Below are positions 37,297 through 47,927 of a DNA stretch of 64,000 nt, one piece after another. The stretch is from assembly GCF_007833165.1 (NCBI RefSeq), contig NZ_VOBQ01000006.1:62001-126000 (forward strand), in the 5' to 3' direction. Below the pieces are notes generated by a model, which searched no databases, was not told the DNA's origin, and saw nothing but the letters and a program-made list of their open reading frames with translations. The translations under genes were made by a program, and so were the position numbers. Positions within the stretch are counted from its first letter, which is position 1, and every line of letters begins with the position of its first letter. This DNA comes from Caenimonas sedimenti. GTDB lineage: Bacteria; Pseudomonadota; Gammaproteobacteria; Burkholderiales; Burkholderiaceae_C.

Positions 37297-37324
37297 GTGT
37301 CCATCAGTAAGAAGGGCAGTGCTC

Positions 37325-37981
37325 ATGGACGCCAACGGGAAGCTCGAGACGGATTTTGCCTGGCGCGTGCTGGAGGAGATCGACTATGGCTTGATCCTCG
37401 TCAGCCCCGCCGGCACGCTGCAGCACGCCAACCACCTCGCGCGCCATGAGCTGGCCCGCAACCGGTTCCTGGGCGTCGAGGCGGGCAGCATCGTCGGCCA
37501 GACACCCCTCCAGACCGAGGAGCTGCTGCGTGGCGTGCGCTCCGCGTCGCTCGGCCGGCGCCAGATGCTCACGCTGCGCAACGGCCCGCAGGCCCTCCCC
37601 GTCGCCTGTGTCCCGCTGTCCCACCCCCAGGCCGGCGAGTCGGCATCGGTCCTGCTGATGCTGGCCCGGCAGTCCGGCACCCAGAACCTCGCCATCACCT
37701 TTTTCGCCCGAACGCACGGACTGAGCCCGGCCGAGCAGTCGGTGCTGCGGCTGCTGTGCGACGGAATGGACGTCCAGGAAATCGCGCAGGCCCACCGGGT
37801 CTCCGAGAACACGGTGCGGACGCAGGTGCGCTCGCTGCGGGACAAGACCGGCATCAACAGCATGCGGCTGCTGGTGCAGCGCGTCGCGGCACTGCCGCCG
37901 GTGGTCCCCATGAGCCTGGCGCCCGCGGCGCCGCCCACGATGCAAACGGAAGTCTCACCGCCGGAGGCCGTGGCCTGCTGA
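37325..37981 (+). CDS. LuxR-type transcriptional regulator
   Basis: A 218-residue regulator with a C-terminal GerE/LuxR helix-turn-helix (about 132-190: GLSPAEQSVLRLLCDGMDVQEIAQ, then SENTVRTQVRSLRDKTG). The N-terminal half (about 10-120) looks like a degenerate PAS-type fold (DYGLILVSPAGTLQHANHLA). It has no receiver domain. The ATG at 37325 is preferred over the GTG at 37319 because its spacing to AAGAAGG is better. It stands between the hydrolase and the cyclase-AAA gene; what it regulates is not known. A strong GC hairpin follows 25 bases after its stop. Confidence 0.88.
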   Translation: MDANGKLETDFAWRVLEEIDYGLILVSPAGTLQHANHLARHELARNRFLGVEAGSIVGQTPLQTEELLRGVRSASLGRRQMLTLRNGPQALPVACVPLSHPQAGESASVLLMLARQSGTQNLAITFFARTHGLSPAEQSVLRLLCDGMDVQEIAQAHRVSENTVRTQVRSLRDKTGINSMRLLVQRVAALPPVVPMSLAPAAPPTMQTEVSPPEAVAC

Positions 37982-41000: not shown

Positions 41001-41154
41001 CGCGGCGGATGCCGCGCCCCTGGCGAGCTCCGCCGCCGAAGCGTTCGAATCCATGGCGATGCAGTTCCACCTGGAGCGCGCCCGCAAGGTGCTGCGCGGC
41101 GAATTCACGGGATCTGCTGGATCGCCTTCGCCAGCTTCGCCGCCAACAGCTTGA
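38089..41154 (+). CDS. Class III nucleotide cyclase-AAA ATPase-TPR regulatory protein
   Basis: A 1021-residue cytosolic protein. The class III cyclase domain (about 20-195) has metal Asp29 (FSDVSGSS), Asp73 (GDGLLA) and the Asn148/Arg152 pair (PNTASRL). A AAA/STAND ATPase (about 215-480) has Walker A GEPGIGKT at 248-255 and Walker B LVLVLDDWQWAD near 347. The rest is TPR-like helices (about 520-1000). This is the CyaB/SARP-related architecture used in signal-responsive regulation; whether it makes cAMP is not proven. CAGAAT sits 6 bases before the ATG (leaderless). Its last 50 bases overlap the 3' end of the convergent heme-enzyme fusion gene, which it might control (inference). Confidence 0.9.
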   Translation: MIPAPAAGDEGPGSASGGQRRYVTVLFSDVSGSSEHAERLEAEDYSELLAQFRRFAREVIPRHGGSVARLQGDGLLAIFGHLEPREDDGRRATEAALELHDAVAQLRAGSGPTATTLQLHSGIHAGLVLVIEGDIERGRFDVVGEVPNTASRLCALAATGQILVSEETLGPQAHFFNASTLRRLVIRGRAEPLNVLRIDGRASVERRFDAASRRGVLPFVGRKAALAELLAAAERARRGESPLVVVSGEPGIGKTRLVEEFQRRLEPDAFHVLQGYCESYLGAEPLQPFMQWIRGALGRQAPLTDDEALSPAAQALLGGAGTRASPHPVLLVTAIIELIGMLARQHTLVLVLDDWQWADDASRQALETLLARQMPVLVIVATRPSKEADPGLADARTLLLQPFDAVDSADAIAAWLPSVEPFVTQEIVRQSGGSPLFIEELCHAAAQGDFHATARRASAAWINALVASRLSRLPEAQAEVLRAASVAGNVFPDWLLERMVGEDAAAPLLQALSATDFLVAAGQPGMLRFKHLLTRDAVYGTVHPARRRALHLRVGQVLEEVGNQDAFEWLEALSYHYDAAGVSDKAAQYAEAAGDKALAAMATDRARVHYLTALRSLDALPQLTRPLKVRWCALAQKLGQACVFDPLDVTEGSLMFERAARLARETGDQNAIARAEYWLGYVNYGRGRPRVSVQHCETALTHALVSEDLKLVAQVEATLGQALASAGRYDRALPLLTRAVESKRQQSRPGSGTAVGSAYTLARIAYTLGDLGRFDEAHATFAEAQRLLGDKEHSVGASVLELVCAVHLWQGRWEEARRAGIEGSEIALRCRSRYLVAMGRALAACGGWALQEDPASLQVLREATQWIEERGGAVSTSLNHGWLLVATVRLGLEQEARQHAVNLFRRARAEDRHGQAMGCRSLARLAAAHGDVPRALHYLALADRAAAVRDSPRERAVTQLVRAELAPMLGRAADAAPLASSAAEAFESMAMQFHLERARKVLRGEFTGSAGSPSPASPPTA

Positions 41155-44100
41155 AGCCGGCGTTGGTCGGGTGCAGGTCGTTCGCCCAGGCGAGGTCCGC
41201 ATCCGCGTCGTCGGGCCACGCGGCCTTCAGCGTGCCACGCAGGTCCACGTGGATCACCTTCAGGCCGTCGACCTTGCCGTCGAGCTTCGCCAGCACTTCG
41301 TCATTGAGCTGGTCGATCAGATGCTTCATGCAGCCGGCCGCCGCAGCCATCACCGCTGGATCGCCCAGGTTGTAGTCCTGCTCCTCGAACGGCTGGCGCA
41401 GCCAGCGGCCGAACTCCATGGCCCCGCGCGGCAACGGGTGGTCGTAGCCGTGCACCAGCACCGGCAGCCGGCGGCCGACCCGGGTGAATTCGGCCTCGAT
41501 GGACCGCAGCACCCGCAGATAGGAATCCATCAGCATGTCGATGTGCGCCTTGACCAGCAACGGGTCGAGCTTGGGCAGCGGATGCGCTGCGGTGCGCCGC
41601 ACGATCATCTGTTTCAGCGCCGCTTCGGTGGAGTCGTTACCGCCCCCGGACAGCAGGACGGCCTTGGGCTTGCGCAGTTGCAGCTCGTTGGCGATGAACT
41701 GGCGGAACGGCCCCGGCTTCGCGGCCATGGTGGCGATGCGCGGCCACTGCTCCCAGTTGCAGAAGCGCCGGCTCAGCTGGTAGTTGTGCTGGCTTTCCAG
41801 GCAATCGCGCAGGTCGCTGCCCAGGTCGATGCCGAGCCGGTAGTCCAGCCATGAGTCGCCCCAGGCCAGCACCGTCGCGCCGTTGGCGGCGGGCAGGTCG
41901 GCGCGGGCCTGGGTGAAGCGGTCCATCAGTTCCTGCAGTTCGTCGCGCAGGTCGACCGCGTCCAGCAGCTTCTCCTTCAGCTCGTCGAAGAAGGAGGGTT
42001 CCGGGGGCTTCGGCGGCGGCGGGGCGGGCGGCGGCACCCAGCCGGAATCACCCTCGATCTGGAAGGTGAGCGGCGCCGCGCCCTGGCGCAGCAGCTCGGG
42101 CCGCGTCAAGAGCGCGGTCAACGTGCCCAGCATCGCGCCGATACCTGCCTCGTGGCCGGGGCAGGCGTGCAGCGGTCCGCGCTGCGCACCCGTTCCACGC
42201 TGGCCGCCGAACATCAGGCGGCCGTCGGCAATCCCTTCGGCCAGCGACTGCTGCGTGCCGGAGACCTTGCCGAGCACGACGACATCGCCCGCCTTCACTT
42301 CCTCGTTGCCGATGGTGTGCGCCTCACTCACCTGACGCCAACCCACGGGAGGCATCGGCCGCATGCGCGCCGCGTCGGCCAGCGCGCCGGCGACGAAGGC
42401 GTCGGCCGTGGCGTAGTCATGGTGGCCGGCGAGTTCGGCGCGCAACGCGCCGAAGCGGCCGGTGCGCTGCCACTCGCGCAGCACGTTCAGCACGGCGCCG
42501 ATGGTGGTGGGGCTGAAGCCCATGATCACGCCGATCATGGTGCGCGCCGCGAAGCCGTCGCGGTCACGCAGCGGGTGCTCCAGCGCGGCCTTGGCGATGG
42601 GCGCGGGCGTGTGGCCGTCGCGCATGGTCGGCAGGTGCTCGCGATGCGCCGCGACGAAGGCGAGCATGGCCTCCTCCAGCGCCTTGCCGTGCTGCTGGCC
42701 CAACGCTTCGGCGGTCTTGCCGGGATTCGGCTGGAAGAAGTAGCGCGAGGGCGCGGCGAAGTGGCCGGGGTACAAGGGCGGCTGGCCGGGCTGCCAGCCC
42801 GCGTCGCTGCCGCGGCGCAGTGGCGCACCTTCGGTGTCCTTCAGGCCGAACCAGTCCTCGATCAGGCAGGCCACGACGTGCTCGACGACTTCGCGGGCCT
42901 CGAAGCCGACCTCGAAGCGCGCATCGCGCACTTCCACCGACTTGCGCCTGGCCTCTTCGACGATGGCGTCGATCTTGGCGTTGGCGGCGGCCTTGGCCAC
43001 CTCGAAGACGCCGCGCTTGTCCAGCGCGGCGACGGCGGCGTTGATGGGGTCGGCCTGCTCCTCGTAGGCCGGCCCGGCATCGAGCCCCAGGAAGATCTCG
43101 CCGAAGCTGGAGCGCATCCGCTTCATGTGGCCGCAGACGCTGTACTGCCCTTCGGGGTTGTGCAGCACCTTGAGCATGCGGTCGCGGTCGGCGACGAGCA
43201 CGCCGTAGGCCGTGCGCAGCACACCGCCGTGGTTCTCGCGGATCGCGGCCCAGATCGAAGCCGCGTCCAGCCGGTCGACGCTGTCCGGGTCTTCCATCGC
43301 CGCCTTCCAGCCGTCCAGCGTGTTGGCCGCCTGCAGCCGCGCGATGAGCGCTTCTCCCCGCGCGGCGTCCCAGGGCACCGGGGGCCGCGCACCGGCGGCG
43401 CGCGCCGCCTTGGCCGAGAGGTCATCCAGCACCTGCACCGAAGGCGCGAGCAGGTACATGCCCCATTCCAGCTGGGTCAGCGGCTGCGGTGCGTCGAACA
43501 GCACCGAAGCGGCTTCCAGTTCGACGTGGAAGGTGTGGTCCTTGTGCTCGAAGCGGAAGTAGCGCGCCTGGCCGCTTTCCCCAACCCCCACGATCGGACA
43601 GACCTGGGCAGACGAACTGCCGGTGCTGTTGCCCCCCACCAGCCAGCGCTGCACGATCTCGAACTGTTCGCCGATGTCGGCGTTGTAGGCCATGAACAGC
43701 AAGCCGCGGTCGGCGTCGCGGTCCCCCTCGCCGGGCGCGCGCAGCGGGCCGTAAGGCAGGCTGCGCCGCATCAGGCGCGGCAGGCGGCCGGCATCCTGCG
43801 GGTCGGCGCGCGGGTGGGCGCGGCGGATGTGCGCGTGCAGCGGGCACAACTGGCCGCCGGGGTCGGGTTCGTAGTCGAAGCGGTTGCGCTCGTTGCGCTC
43901 CAGGATCTGCGGCGCCACCATCGGCATGCCGTCGCGCGAGCGCCCCATCAGCTTGCCGTAGACGATCTCGGTGTACTCCGACGGGTCGCCGCCCAGGGCC
44001 TTGGCCATCTCCATGGCGGTTTGGGCCACCGCGCGCTCCAGCCGGCTCGCGAACTGCCGGTACTTGCGCATCACCAGGAAGCTGCCGTTGGCGAGCCAGG

Positions 44101-45784
44101 CCAGGCGCGGATCCTTCTCGGGGTCGGCCGGCACATCCTGCGCGTTCGGGTGGCCCTGGATGATCTCGCCCAGATGGATGCGGTTGCGGTCCCAGGAGTC
44201 GCCCTCGACGTCGGGCTGGCCATCGCCGTCGGCGTAACCGAAATGCTCGATCGGGACGTCACGGCCCGCATGCTTGCGCAGGTTGCGGCGCAGCGACTGG
44301 ATGGCCAGGATGCGCGTGCCGCGGGCGATGCCTTGCAGCGCCGCCACCTCGTCGCGCAGCGGGTGATGAAGCTCAAAGTAGTCGAGCGCACGCTCCTGGG
44401 CCGCCGTCGCGCGGCATCGCAATTGCAGCACGGCATGGACGCCGTCGAGTTCGGCGGTGATGACCTCGTGCGGCCGCTGGTCGAGCGTGATGAACCGGCC
44501 CGGCAGCCGCCAGCGCCGCGGATGGTTGTGGCGCACGTCGCCCAGCTGGCCGGCGCGCGCCGCCATGCCCTGGCGGAACTCCTCCGGGAACAGCGCCAGC
44601 TCGTCTTCCGTCAGCCCGGCCACCCGCAGGCCCGCCAGCGTGAGCGCGACGTTGCGGAAGACGATGCCCGGGCCCGCGATGTGCCGGTCGGCATCCTTGG
44701 TCACCGCGCCATGGGCCCAGGCGAAGAAGCGGCTCGCCGCCGCCGCGTCGTCGAACGCCAGCAGCAGCACCAGGCCATGCGTGATCTCTTCGTAGGGTCG
44801 CAGGATGCCGCCCTGGATCTGCGCGCGGTGCACCGCCGGGACCGGCGCGCCGTCGGGCGCCGGCTGCTCGGGCCGGCGCAGTTCGGCGTCGCCATGCGAA
44901 TCAGGGAACAACCAGTCCAGCTGGCGGGCGAACCGCGTGCGCGCCTCCGCCAGCGGCGCCTGCGCCAGCCTGGCGTCGCGCATGTGCACGAACTCCAGCA
45001 GCAGTTGCAGGCTGGCGCGCCGCAGGAAGTCGCCGTCGACGGTGCCGGGGCGGTAAAGGTCCGTCAGCCGGTACAGCACGGCCAGGCCCTGCAGCCCGGT
45101 CCGCACGCGTTCGCGCACCATGCGGATGTCACCCGGGTAGGCCACCTGCGGGTCGTCCGGCAGCGTGTCGATGCCCTGCACCAGGCGCGACACCTGTTCC
45201 TCGGCCGACGGCAGGACGGCATGCATGGTGTGGCGTTCGCGCTCCTCCAGCGACTGCGCGCCCGAACGGGCCCGCATGCGCTCCACCCGGCGGTGGTACA
45301 GCACGTCGCGCGCCGTGAATTCGGGGGGGCCGTAGAAGAAGCCGGTCTCGCGCTGCACGCTGCGCGCCCACGCGGCCCACTGCCGGTAGGTGCTGCCCCA
45401 GGCCGGCACGTAGCCCTCGGTGTCGAAAAAGATCAGGTCGAGCAGCGTGCCGACCTTGTCCCAGAGCACGCGGATGTACGACTCCCAGCTGCCGTCGAAA
45501 GTGACCGAGAGCAGCACCATGTCGCGGCCTTCGAGCTCGAACACGGCGACCCGAACCGACTGGATGACACCCACGCGTTCCACCGAGTCGGACAGCAGGC
45601 GTGCCGGGGAATATTCATGCGAGGCGGTGCGGGCGCCGTGCAGGGCCTCGAGCACGCGCTTGATCCGGGTCTTGTAGGTGACCGACTCCATCGAGTCGAC
45701 GAAGCCGGTCTTGACGGGCGCCAGCAGGGTCAGGTCGGAACTGCCCCCCAGGCTGCGGCCCTTGATGATGACGTCGCGTTGCAC
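41105..45784 (-). CDS. Fusion protein: uncharacterised N-domain, DyP peroxidase, P450-like domain, SGNH hydrolase
   Basis: A 1559-residue protein. Residues 1-300 match no family I recognise. About 310-770 is a DyP-type peroxidase with the distal motif GYADG (516-520, Asp519), heme-ligand His652 in HIRRAHPR, a distal RRSLPYG and the class C/D-like FMAYNADIGEQFE. About 855-1245 is P450-like: the I-helix reads GFSPTT (1089-1094), the ExxR helix is changed to DAAR (1137-1140), and the Cys-ligand segment is HACPG (Cys1208) after an insertion. A proline linker leads to an SGNH hydrolase (1300-1559) with GDSW (Ser1311), GGND (1381-1384) and NDLHPTNAG (His1538). The GTG start has GAGGAG upstream. There is no signal peptide. 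It follows an S1P-lyase-like gene by 86 bases. The overall reaction is unknown. Confidence 0.85.
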   Translation of the reverse strand: MQRDVIIKGRSLGGSSDLTLLAPVKTGFVDSMESVTYKTRIKRVLEALHGARTASHEYSPARLLSDSVERVGVIQSVRVAVFELEGRDMVLLSVTFDGSWESYIRVLWDKVGTLLDLIFFDTEGYVPAWGSTYRQWAAWARSVQRETGFFYGPPEFTARDVLYHRRVERMRARSGAQSLEERERHTMHAVLPSAEEQVSRLVQGIDTLPDDPQVAYPGDIRMVRERVRTGLQGLAVLYRLTDLYRPGTVDGDFLRRASLQLLLEFVHMRDARLAQAPLAEARTRFARQLDWLFPDSHGDAELRRPEQPAPDGAPVPAVHRAQIQGGILRPYEEITHGLVLLLAFDDAAAASRFFAWAHGAVTKDADRHIAGPGIVFRNVALTLAGLRVAGLTEDELALFPEEFRQGMAARAGQLGDVRHNHPRRWRLPGRFITLDQRPHEVITAELDGVHAVLQLRCRATAAQERALDYFELHHPLRDEVAALQGIARGTRILAIQSLRRNLRKHAGRDVPIEHFGYADGDGQPDVEGDSWDRNRIHLGEIIQGHPNAQDVPADPEKDPRLAWLANGSFLVMRKYRQFASRLERAVAQTAMEMAKALGGDPSEYTEIVYGKLMGRSRDGMPMVAPQILERNERNRFDYEPDPGGQLCPLHAHIRRAHPRADPQDAGRLPRLMRRSLPYGPLRAPGEGDRDADRGLLFMAYNADIGEQFEIVQRWLVGGNSTGSSSAQVCPIVGVGESGQARYFRFEHKDHTFHVELEAASVLFDAPQPLTQLEWGMYLLAPSVQVLDDLSAKAARAAGARPPVPWDAARGEALIARLQAANTLDGWKAAMEDPDSVDRLDAASIWAAIRENHGGVLRTAYGVLVADRDRMLKVLHNPEGQYSVCGHMKRMRSSFGEIFLGLDAGPAYEEQADPINAAVAALDKRGVFEVAKAAANAKIDAIVEEARRKSVEVRDARFEVGFEAREVVEHVVACLIEDWFGLKDTEGAPLRRGSDAGWQPGQPPLYPGHFAAPSRYFFQPNPGKTAEALGQQHGKALEEAMLAFVAAHREHLPTMRDGHTPAPIAKAALEHPLRDRDGFAARTMIGVIMGFSPTTIGAVLNVLREWQRTGRFGALRAELAGHHDYATADAFVAGALADAARMRPMPPVGWRQVSEAHTIGNEEVKAGDVVVLGKVSGTQQSLAEGIADGRLMFGGQRGTGAQRGPLHACPGHEAGIGAMLGTLTALLTRPELLRQGAAPLTFQIEGDSGWVPPPAPPPPKPPEPSFFDELKEKLLDAVDLRDELQELMDRFTQARADLPAANGATVLAWGDSWLDYRLGIDLGSDLRDCLESQHNYQLSRRFCNWEQWPRIATMAAKPGPFRQFIANELQLRKPKAVLLSGGGNDSTEAALKQMIVRRTAAHPLPKLDPLLVKAHIDMLMDSYLRVLRSIEAEFTRVGRRLPVLVHGYDHPLPRGAMEFGRWLRQPFEEQDYNLGDPAVMAAAAGCMKHLIDQLNDEVLAKLDGKVDGLKVIHVDLRGTLKAAWPDDADADLAWANDLHPTNAGFKLLAAKLAKAIQQIP

Positions 45785-45870: not shown

Positions 45871-47310
45871 CTAGCCCCGGCGCTGCTTCCACGCGACGTA
45901 CCAACCCGCGACCTTCTGCGCCACGGCATCGACGACGCCGGCTGCCGGCGGCGCCGCATGCAAGTCCAGTTTCTGGCCACCCGCACGGTACATCTGGAGG
46001 AAGAGATCCAGCACCTTGTCCTTCACCATGCCCCGCAGCGGCACGTGGCTCATCATCCCGTAGGTGGCCGCGCTGCCGCTGCGCGCCAGCGACGGATCGG
46101 CCTTGACCACGGCCACCGCTTCGCGCAGATCGTGCAGGTAGGCGCCGACCACGCCGTCGTGCGCCGCCGTCACCATCGCGTGGAGGCCGTCGGGTTGCTG
46201 CAGGCGGTTCACCGTCCAGCCCTTCGCGTCGAGCTGGTCGCCGACGGCGAAGATGTTCACGGCGCGGTCGCGGGCACCGTAGGCCAGCAGCGGCCCGCTG
46301 GGGTCGCCCAGCACCTGCAGCTCTGGGATCGCCGCGATGCCGTCCCGCATGGCGCCGAAAGCTTGCATCGTTCGGGCGGCCAGCTCGCGATAGCCCGCCT
46401 CGCCGAAATGCTGCATCGCGGCCCACGCCGCCGCGTAGGCGCCGCCCGGGCGCGTGCCCAGCAGCGCGGGCGAGGCGAACACGCCGCCCGGCCAGTCCTG
46501 GTAGACGAACATCTGGTGGCGCAACAGCTCCAGGCTGCGGTAGGTGATGGTGGAGGCGCCCTTGGCCGCGAAGCCGTACTTGTGGATGTCGGCGGAGATC
46601 GAGGTGACGCCCGGCACGCGGTAGTCCCAGGCGGGCAGGGCCCGGCCATTCATCTCCATGAAGGGCAGGATGAAGCCGCCCACGCAGGCATCGACGTGCA
46701 TGGGCACGCCGCGCGCCGCGGCGATGGCGCCCATGGCTTCGATCGGGTCGATGGTGCCGTGCGGATACTCCGGGGCTGAGCCCAGAACCAGCACCGTCTG
46801 CCGGTTGACCAACCCCGGCAGTTGCGCGACATCCGCGCGCAGGCTGGCGTCCAGCGGCAGCAGCCGGGGCCGCACGCCGAAGTATTCCGCTGCCTTGAAC
46901 CAGGCCACGTGCGCGGTCACCGGCAGCACCATCTCCGGCTTCTTCACGCCGCGCTGCGCGAGCGCCATGTCGCGATAGGTCTTCACGGCCAGCAGGCAGC
47001 TCTCGGTCCCGCCGGAGGTGACGACGCCGCAAGTCTCCGGCGGCCCATGCAGCAGGCCGGCCAGCACGGAGATGATCTCCGTCTCCATCCGTTTCAGGCT
47101 CTGGAAGGCGGTGGGATTCAGGCCGTTGGCGGACTGGAACGACTGCCAGGCCTGGCCCAGGAATTCATCGTGCGCGTCGTCCAGCCAATAGACGAGGCTC
47201 CACAGGCGGTTGGACTTGTAGTCGGGGTCGCCTTCCGCGAACGCGCGCAGGGCCTGCAGCACCTCCTCGCGCGGGCGCCCTTGCGGCGGCAAAGCCGCAT
47301 GTCCGTTCAC
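45871..47310 (-). CDS. PLP-dependent lyase/decarboxylase, sphingosine-1-phosphate-lyase-like
   Basis: A 479-residue fold-type I PLP enzyme. It has SGGTES (99-104), the stacking His134, Asp207 (HVDACVGGF) and Schiff-base Lys244 in SADIHKYGFAAKG. The DIHKYG motif and the HVDACVGGF context are those of the S1P-lyase/group II decarboxylase clade, which cleaves phosphorylated long-chain amino alcohols or decarboxylates amino acids. Bacterial homologues are soluble and lack the eukaryotic membrane anchor. It is coupled to the DedA gene (4-base overlap) and precedes the DyP-P450 fusion, suggesting a membrane-lipid theme (inference). Confidence 0.85.
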   Translation of the reverse strand: MNGHAALPPQGRPREEVLQALRAFAEGDPDYKSNRLWSLVYWLDDAHDEFLGQAWQSFQSANGLNPTAFQSLKRMETEIISVLAGLLHGPPETCGVVTSGGTESCLLAVKTYRDMALAQRGVKKPEMVLPVTAHVAWFKAAEYFGVRPRLLPLDASLRADVAQLPGLVNRQTVLVLGSAPEYPHGTIDPIEAMGAIAAARGVPMHVDACVGGFILPFMEMNGRALPAWDYRVPGVTSISADIHKYGFAAKGASTITYRSLELLRHQMFVYQDWPGGVFASPALLGTRPGGAYAAAWAAMQHFGEAGYRELAARTMQAFGAMRDGIAAIPELQVLGDPSGPLLAYGARDRAVNIFAVGDQLDAKGWTVNRLQQPDGLHAMVTAAHDGVVGAYLHDLREAVAVVKADPSLARSGSAATYGMMSHVPLRGMVKDKVLDLFLQMYRAGGQKLDLHAAPPAAGVVDAVAQKVAGWYVAWKQRRG

Positions 47311-47927
47311 GCGGACGGCCTCGCCCGCGTGCGGCGCCAGCGTGCCGCGGCCCAGACCAGCAGCGCCAGCACGACGACCGCGCCCACCAGCACGCCCTGG
47401 AACTGGCCGACCAGCGCCATGATCTCCTGCCAGCGCCCGCCCACGTAGCGCACGCCGTACACCAGCAGCGGCAGTTCCACGACCGCGGCCAGCCCGTCAT
47501 ACAGGAACAGGTGGCGGTACGGCATCTTCAGCGAACCGGCGGCGAAGAACAGCGCCGTGCGCACGCCGGGCATGAAGCGCACCACGAAGATGTAGGCGGG
47601 CCCATAGCGCCGCATCGTGTCCTGCGTGGCGGCCAGCCGCGCGGGCGAGATCACGCGCCCCGCCCACCGGTGCGCCAGCAGGCGCGTGCCGAAGCGATGG
47701 CCCCAGTGGAACACCAGCGCATCACCCCCGATGAGACCGAACCAGGCGACCACCATCAGCGGCACCGGTTCCATCACGCCCTGGAGCGTGAGAGCCGCGG
47801 CCGCGAGCAGCAAGATGTCCTCGTTGATCGGCGCGCCAATGCCGCAGCTGAACAGCAGCGCGAAGAGCAGCGCGTAGGCGGGGAAGCCGGAGAGCGACTG
47901 GAGGAATGCGAGCGCGGAGTCGAACAT
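47307..47927 (-). CDS. DedA family membrane protein
   Basis: A 206-residue inner-membrane protein of the DedA/VTT family with the conserved acidic residues in the first re-entrant region (INEDILLL) and the later FVVRFMPGVRTALFF motif (F-x3-R-x2-P-x2-R). Some members flip polyprenyl phosphate or phosphatidylethanolamine. The C-terminus is basic. It is the first gene of the DedA-lyase-fusion run; the 116 bases upstream are shared with the divergent tctCBA operon. Confidence 0.9.
   Translation of the reverse strand: MFDSALAFLQSLSGFPAYALLFALLFSCGIGAPINEDILLLAAAALTLQGVMEPVPLMVVAWFGLIGGDALVFHWGHRFGTRLLAHRWAGRVISPARLAATQDTMRRYGPAYIFVVRFMPGVRTALFFAAGSLKMPYRHLFLYDGLAAVVELPLLVYGVRYVGGRWQEIMALVGQFQGVLVGAVVVLALLVWAAARWRRTRARPSA

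Follow-up and report, generated by a model that had tools for sequence, protein, structure and literature searches.

A conserved bacterial gene module joining a DyP-type peroxidase and a divergent P450 on one chain, with a cyclase-AAA-TPR gene as neighbour

Results and Discussion

Genes at the locus

The enzyme described here is encoded on a stretch of 64,000 nucleotides from Caenimonas sedimenti (contig NZ_VOBQ01000006.1, positions 62,001 to 126,000; the whole stretch is termed the window), where a single minus-strand gene specifies a protein of four parts, namely an N-terminal domain denoted X, a DyP-type peroxidase domain, a P450-fold domain and an SGNH hydrolase domain (Table 1). Translation of the minus strand shows the frame to be open throughout with zero internal stops, and in an alignment the gene start matches the starts of the open reading frames (ORFs) of relatives including loci L100, L102, L103 and L106. 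The presence of three catalytic families in one frame, as proposed in an earlier note made from the letters alone, is borne out by domain, structure and conservation evidence, and the motifs lie where that note had put them: GYADG at 516-520 and HIRRAHPR at 652-659 in the peroxidase part, GFSPTT at 1089-1094 and HACPG at 1206-1210 (Cys1208) in the P450-like part, and GDSW at 1309-1312, GGND at 1381-1384 and NDLHP at 1535-1539 in the hydrolase. The count of three holds for the catalytic domains, but the X domain had been overlooked. A second GDSW is found at 528, within the DyP part. By eye, the linker ahead of the SGNH domain is rich in proline, and the N terminus shows no apparent secretion signal.

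Table 1. Position of the enzyme gene, its domains and neighbouring genes in the window; residue numbers refer to the enzyme.
Feature	Position	Strand	Basis or remarks
X-DyP-P450-SGNH gene	41105..45784	minus	1559 aa; GTG start 45784, stop 41105-41107
X domain (~1-305)	44870..45784	minus	conservation, AlphaFold2
DyP-type peroxidase domain (~319-800; Asp519, His652, Arg673)	43385..44830	minus	Pfam, phmmer, NCBIfam, conservation
P450-fold domain (~805-1245)	42050..43372	minus	AlphaFold2, Foldseek, structural alignment, conservation
SGNH hydrolase domain (~1290-1559; Ser1311, GGND 1381-1384, His1538)	41108..41917	minus	Pfam, conservation
Cyclase-AAA-TPR protein, 1026 aa	38074..41154	plus	Pfam; convergent with enzyme gene, 50-bp overlap
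LuxR-type regulator, possible further partner	37319..37981	plus	GerE 7e-9
Sphingosine-1-phosphate lyase homologue	45871..47310	minus	phmmer 4.4e-111 to 5eud

Distribution and architectures of the DyP-P450 family

Within the same bacterial family, 36 matches at E≤1e-20 were obtained from 399 genomes, two of which are DyP alone and one of which is cut by a contig end. Beyond the family the module is rare: with the P450 profile at 1e-15 it was found in 3 of 300 genomes of the order and 2 of 398 of the phylum, the window's own genome being among them in both cases. A scan of named genomes yielded 23 loci, including Variovorax, Xenophilus, Schlegelella and Rubrivivax as well as three named Bradyrhizobium species and a Pseudomonadales metagenome-assembled genome. 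After dropping nine repeats (L095, L096, L097, L099, L100, L112, L113, L114 and L117), 50 distinct DyP-P450 genes form the basis of the counts given below; they leave out the split loci as well as L094, which breaks off within its P450, and L118-L122 lie outside the architecture map. Loci from one bacterial family do not amount to independent samples, and for the DyP matches the neighbourhoods of 12 regions were covered, those of 11 other loci and the window's own. The open frame of L120 (1599 aa) may represent a further fused copy.

The earlier note had proposed looking for homologues that keep all three catalytic domains, and the DyP-P450-SGNH fusion is indeed present in five other genomes, one of them a Bradyrhizobium. 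Full-length fused relatives share 51% and 42% identity with the window enzyme; further fused copies are L067, L106 and L111, the last being cut at its start by the contig end. L106 is the homologue of Bradyrhizobium retamae, and the patatin form is exemplified by Variovorax soli (L107). Altogether, the SGNH domain is fused C-terminally in 6/50 genes (window, L062, L065, L067, L106, L111) and encoded by an adjacent gene in 5/50 (L063, L066, L102, L103, L104), and in nine a gene for a patatin-like lipase located directly upstream on the same strand takes its place. Apart from these, five split operons have the order P450-X / DyP / patatin and likewise carry the cyclase gene, and in L028 the P450 gene adjoins an X-DyP gene. 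DyP and patatin are fused in two of the split operons (L024, 6240-10256, and L027, 4616-12712), with long hydrophobic stretches visible by eye in the middle of the patatin.

In a tree rooted at its midpoint only, the SGNH-bearing genes belong to one strongly supported set of 15, in which fused and separate forms interchange; no SGNH was detected in four of the 15, two of which (L064, L098) are contig-end cases. Patatin-bearing genes appear in two separate places, with SGNH in a third, and in a large set of 24 no lipase was detected in 22. As the tips labelled as lacking a lipase include L064, L082 and L098, all of them contig-end cases, the numbers of changes are upper guides. The Bradyrhizobium sequences nest in sets dominated by the window's own bacterial family, a placement that suggests gene transfer.

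A plasmid search gave 17 records, and by match range all but the best (H1) cover DyP alone. On the Sphingopyxis plasmid pDB-1 (L118, 8989-14315) an 809-residue gene matches DyP and part of the P450; it starts directly behind a Tn3 transposase, faces an AAA ATPase gene in convergent orientation and apparently lacks X. In the one annotated relative viewed, that of the Sphingopyxis plasmid, the annotation reads just 'Dyp-type peroxidase domain-containing protein'.

The DyP-type peroxidase domain

The DyP part matches a solved peroxidase in phmmer with E=2.2e-25, an ancestral D-type DyP being among the next best hits. Pfam Dyp_perox_C is found above its cut-off in the window enzyme (2.3e-8), and NCBIfam TIGR01413 reaches 80.2 bits, under the cut-off of 100.5. 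Of the heme-site residues, His is present in 49/49 relatives, Arg in 49/49 and Asp in 48/49, and the window enzyme possesses all three. The His is the proximal residue, the Arg and the Asp of GxxDG are the distal ones; for Arg673 this assignment follows the spacing in the Bjerkandera enzyme. Judged by its sequence, the window enzyme contains a DyP-type peroxidase domain with intact heme-site residues.

The P450-fold domain

Pfam p450 gives zero matches at E≤1 in the window enzyme, and therefore the objection foreseen in the earlier note, that the middle part is not P450-like, required further tests. A profile of 22 relatives searched against the PDB retrieves mainly P450s, albeit weakly (best E 0.0079). 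The AlphaFold2 model of this part, calculated from an alignment of the window enzyme and named relatives, has a mean predicted local distance difference test score (pLDDT) of 91.8. Foldseek finds 1634 chains for the model at E≤0.001, of which the best 50 listed are all P450s, and with the VIA structural aligner the model superposes on P450BioI with Z 31.2 and a root-mean-square deviation of 2.6 over 344 residues, other P450s following close behind. In the model the GFSPTT motif is situated in the middle of the longest helix (281-314, corresponding to residues 1075-1108), the I helix, whereas D1137-A-A-R1140 is part of helix 338-347 at the position of the K helix and the heme cysteine Cys1208 (model residue 414) directly precedes helix 417-432.

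The conservation pattern is mixed. In the heme-thiolate loop FG...HxCxG the F, G, H, C and G are each found in 50/50 relatives, whereas the I-helix acid position is occupied by Pro in 48/50, with the Thr kept in 48/50, and the ExxR of the K helix is not conserved (D-A-A-R in the window enzyme, the Arg position being R in only 6/50). An acid-alcohol pair in the I helix is usual in O2-using P450s but does not define them. The split relative L028, a Pfam-verified P450 (1.9e-11), has GFxPT in common with the family but keeps ExxR (EALR); it aligns to the P450 profile of the fused family at 97.4% probability, and comparison of the split-locus and fused P450 profiles gives 97.5%. A chance motif match is rejected on the grounds of the AlphaFold2 model, the Foldseek search, the structural alignment and the L028 profile alignment. 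The P450-like reading of the middle part is thus upheld by fold, cysteine loop and the profile link to L028, but not by Pfam p450, ExxR or the I-helix acid; by its modelled fold and its cysteine loop the domain is classed as a divergent P450.

The SGNH hydrolase and X domains

The Pfam family Lipase_GDSL_2 matches the window enzyme below its cut-off (E=0.009, 17 bits versus 32.9), while the stand-alone relative in L016 passes it (35.4). Four of the SGNH copies encoded by adjacent genes were scanned with Pfam; two gave sub-threshold GDSL matches and two none. A PDB profile search with the SGNH part retrieved three structures, all weakly (E 0.32 at best), of which two are GDSL or carboxylesterase entries. 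The Ser of block I, GGND and the His of block V are invariant in 11/11 fused or adjacent copies. The position of the DxxH Asp, three residues before the His, is D in 4/11 and N in 7/11 including the window enzyme, and the residue following it is D or E in all 11.

X resides in the same ORF in 47/50 DyP-P450 genes; L066 and L102 have it in a neighbouring or overlapping ORF, and L111 is cut. Its AlphaFold2 model is only fair (pLDDT 75.3). The first ~150 residues are predicted to form a ferredoxin-like beta-alpha-beta-beta-alpha unit that weakly resembles dimeric alpha/beta barrels, the best Z of 6.5 being a level that common arrangements reach. No match was obtained at E≤1 with the X profile against the PDB, nor at E≤0.001 in a Foldseek search with the model. 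The link between X of fused and split loci is weak in profile comparison (hhalign E 0.0013, 18% probability); direct hidden Markov model matches to X in split loci amount to 1.6e-4 in L031 and 7e-4 in L030, and in L028 the X part is assigned by eye alone. One might guess at a role of X in dimerisation or in a heme-related function.

Gene neighbourhood

Convergent with the enzyme gene lies a gene for a protein combining cyclase, AAA and TPR domains (Pfam Guanylate_cyc 9e-16, AAA_16 6e-32 and TPR_12). A homologue is located within 5.5 kb of 49/50 DyP-P450 genes, and the stretch of the 50th (L098) stops at a contig end. The distance is at most 150 bp in 39 of the 49, an SGNH gene intervenes in four of the other ten, and in L076 and L090, at 4.8 and 5.5 kb, the edge of the stretch leaves just part of the cyclase gene visible. 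Most loci have it in convergent orientation, but it points the same way as the enzyme gene in two Bradyrhizobium loci and is also co-directional in split operons, L024 for example. The cyclase accompanies each of the six split loci; it is missing from L026 and L029, two DyP loci in which no P450 was found (L029 has a weak X match). Ten places in the window's genome match the cyclase, only this gene at full length, so that cyclase abundance does not account for the adjacency.

Both metal aspartates of the cyclase domain are present in 52/53 sequences, the transition-state Asn in 40 and the transition-state Arg in 41; the positions that specify the base, usually Lys/Asp, are mostly Arg/Glu. Owing to the Arg/Glu pair the nucleotide is uncertain, and the substitution hints at an unusual nucleotide product or an altered cyclase activity. 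The domain resembles PycC (4.4e-14) and matches TIGR03903 with 1.1e-51, far under the cut-off score of that family.

Homologues of the LuxR gene lie near the module at 12 of the 49 loci other than the window and also at L094, a raw count for a common type of gene. Upstream of the enzyme gene, at a distance of 86 bp and on the same strand, the sphingosine-1-phosphate lyase homologue is found, followed further upstream by a gene for a DedA-type membrane protein recognised by eye (47307-47927, minus strand); both possibly share one transcript with the enzyme gene. No relatives of the two are contained in the other fetched stretches (E≤1e-8, up to ~9 kb from the enzyme gene). A sphingolipid pathway, which the lyase might suggest, is not supported within the reach of these stretches, and the lyase gene is regarded as a local neighbour outside the conserved module.

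Nine neighbours from eight loci devoid of a lipase, a small sample and not a full survey, were scanned with Pfam and gave AlkB-like, AAA_33, CoA-transferase, CHAT/LCAT, RecQ, PFK, amidohydrolase and DUF7092 matches, and one blank. The CoA-transferase and the CHAT/LCAT-like protein stand beside the DyP-P450 gene of L085 (7732-13392), where the LCAT part might, by its sequence, be another acyl-handling partner. At the 50 loci a codon-bias-filtered scan of coding-like ORFs (50-450 codons, up to 6 kb away or as far as the stretch extends) revealed no 2Fe-2S ferredoxin motif; its sole match is a 4Fe-type motif in L062. A previous motif scan of ORFs of 100-450 aa had returned 26 ferredoxin-motif matches, which were discarded as nearly all of them are out-of-frame by eye.

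Comparison with known systems

Fungal Ppo enzymes and linoleate diol synthases (dioxygenase-P450 fusions, CYP6001 and relatives) have the same order of a peroxidase-type heme domain followed by a P450 (PMC13049297). The dioxygenase domain of these fungal proteins is a member of the peroxidase-cyclooxygenase superfamily, whereas the window peroxidase is a DyP and a cyclooxygenase-type domain is absent. According to PMC4420034 the DyP superfamily arose independently of the cyclooxygenase-like superfamily of the fungal diol synthases. The analogy to Ppo drawn in the earlier note is hence one of function, not of common origin of the peroxidases (PMC4420034). The P450 partners of the fungal dioxygenases are described as self-sufficient and as acting on hydroperoxides (PMC13049297), and the window P450, which has neither the I-helix acid nor a fused reductase or ferredoxin nor a 2Fe-2S motif nearby, fits hydroperoxide-using P450s of this kind. 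The relevant passages of PMC13049297 mention no X domain and no hydrolase or cyclase partner.

Oomycete CYP5619 fusions also unite a heme peroxidase and a P450 in one chain, but there the P450 is N-terminal, keeps EXXR and has a degenerate CXG loop (PMC5919972), whereas in the window enzyme it is C-terminal to the DyP with the cysteine loop intact and ExxR lost. As for ExxR, CYP157 is reported to lack it (title cited in PMC3990721), and its requirement is accordingly not absolute; the window P450 family shares this trait. The window DyP has the heme-site Asp, His and Arg in common with DyP-type peroxidases but, unlike them, is embedded between X and a P450. CYP157 comprises actinobacterial stand-alone P450s. 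CYP152 and CYP74 are peroxide- or hydroperoxide-using P450s that depart from the usual I-helix acid. The window P450 is likewise without it, but Pro replaces the acid and the Thr stays; no relationship is evident, and neither family is among the best 50 structural matches listed, an absence that carries no weight. The neighbouring cyclase is similar to Pycsar and TOMM kinase/cyclase proteins; however, no known Pycsar effector or TOMM gene is among the genes scanned.

The open-access literature yielded no enzyme with the present domain order, in line with the earlier note, and no description of a DyP-P450 module or fusion, with patatin or adenylate cyclase or otherwise, this absence being provisional. 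Provisionally, the combination is new while every catalytic domain derives from a known superfamily.

Proposed function and alternative explanations

The bacterial module, conserved in fused and split forms and in its neighbourhood and retaining the DyP residues as well as the P450 cysteine and fold, is tentatively read as a cyclase-AAA-TPR protein plus an X-DyP-P450 di-heme oxidase, joined in 20/50 loci by an SGNH or patatin hydrolase, that carries out signal-regulated, peroxide-driven acyl oxidation; we rate this at somewhat less than an even chance. The hydrolase would free or de-esterify the acyl substrate, the DyP heme would oxidise it or generate a hydroperoxide or radical with H2O2, and the P450 would serve as a peroxygenase or hydroperoxide rearrangase instead of an O2/NADPH monooxygenase, with the cyclase-AAA-TPR protein regulating the process. 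Both hemes may thus run on peroxide, a reading of the P450 that is founded on the absent I-helix acid and on the absence of a fused reductase or ferredoxin and of a nearby 2Fe-2S motif. The exchange of two unrelated acyl hydrolases for each other suggests an acyl ester in the substrate. The idea of the earlier note that a hydrolase first releases the fatty acid likewise gains indirect support from the unrelated patatin, which takes the place of SGNH in 9/50 loci and in five split operons; the oxylipin-type product it had ventured stays a hypothesis.

Several observations weigh against this assignment. Neither SGNH nor patatin is seen near 30/50 genes (three of these, L064, L082 and L098, reach a contig end), so the hydrolase is not obligatory, and in the window SGNH an Asn takes the position expected for the catalytic Asp of DxxH, a caveat on its predicted catalytic triad. 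DyPs are H2O2-dependent peroxidases and are not known as fatty-acid dioxygenases. Finally, the P450 keeps the I-helix Thr and a canonical Cys loop, which leaves room for an O2-based mechanism served by a redox partner whose gene lies elsewhere.

An artificial fusion of distinct genes through a mistake in sequencing or assembly has practically no chance, for although SGNH or X are separate ORFs in some relatives, fused relatives in five further genomes including Bradyrhizobium and the open frame of the window rule it out. A role in natural-product tailoring, where the target of DyP and P450 is a small molecule or acyl chain dedicated to the pathway, the hydrolase releases it and the cyclase-AAA-TPR protein is the pathway regulator, is unlikely. 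The best 50 structural matches have P450BioI at the top and several natural-product P450s among them, and the LuxR genes would fit in as well; the same 50, however, also hold unrelated P450s from bacteria, with Z values no more than 3 apart, upstream neighbours vary between loci, and no polyketide or nonribosomal peptide synthase was found by Pfam in the small sample of neighbours from lipase-free loci.

Patatins are phospholipase effectors in known systems. By analogy with cyclase-effector systems, the cyclase-AAA-TPR protein could sense stress and the enzyme attack the cell's own membrane lipids, and the cyclase gene is indeed the most constant partner, with a PycC-like domain and conserved metal aspartates. 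This signal-triggered lipid damage or defence is unlikely, given that PADLOC is blank for the window enzyme and two patatin proteins, that Pfam reports no cyclic-nucleotide receptor domain in the window enzyme and that most loci show no lipase. Slightly less likely still is that the enzyme uses H2O2 to break down or detoxify aromatic or ester substrates, SGNH being the esterase. DyPs are broad in substrate range and were discovered on bulky dyes (PMC4420034), and the module is found in genera such as Variovorax and Bradyrhizobium, but patatin in the place of SGNH fits acyl lipids better than aryl esters, and there is the apparent lack of an N-terminal secretion signal.

Peroxide-driven acyl oxidation, the preferred reading, can be extended to a bacterial, signal-controlled pathway of the oxylipin type built from parts unrelated to cyclooxygenase or lipoxygenase. 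Here a lipase would free acyl chains, the DyP would convert them to an oxidised or hydroperoxide intermediate and the fused, redox-partner-free P450 would rearrange it, with the cyclase-AAA-TPR switch encoded alongside and, in the window, all enzyme steps on one chain. This extended proposal is doubtful. Should the peroxide-driven lipid reading hold, it would represent a convergent invention in bacteria of a lipid pathway that pairs a peroxidase with a P450, yield a biocatalyst complete in itself and make a new kind of lipid signalling, linked to the cyclase, accessible to direct tests. In the module itself a single chain combines two heme chemistries, the lipase is exchangeable and a signalling gene is nearly always nearby.

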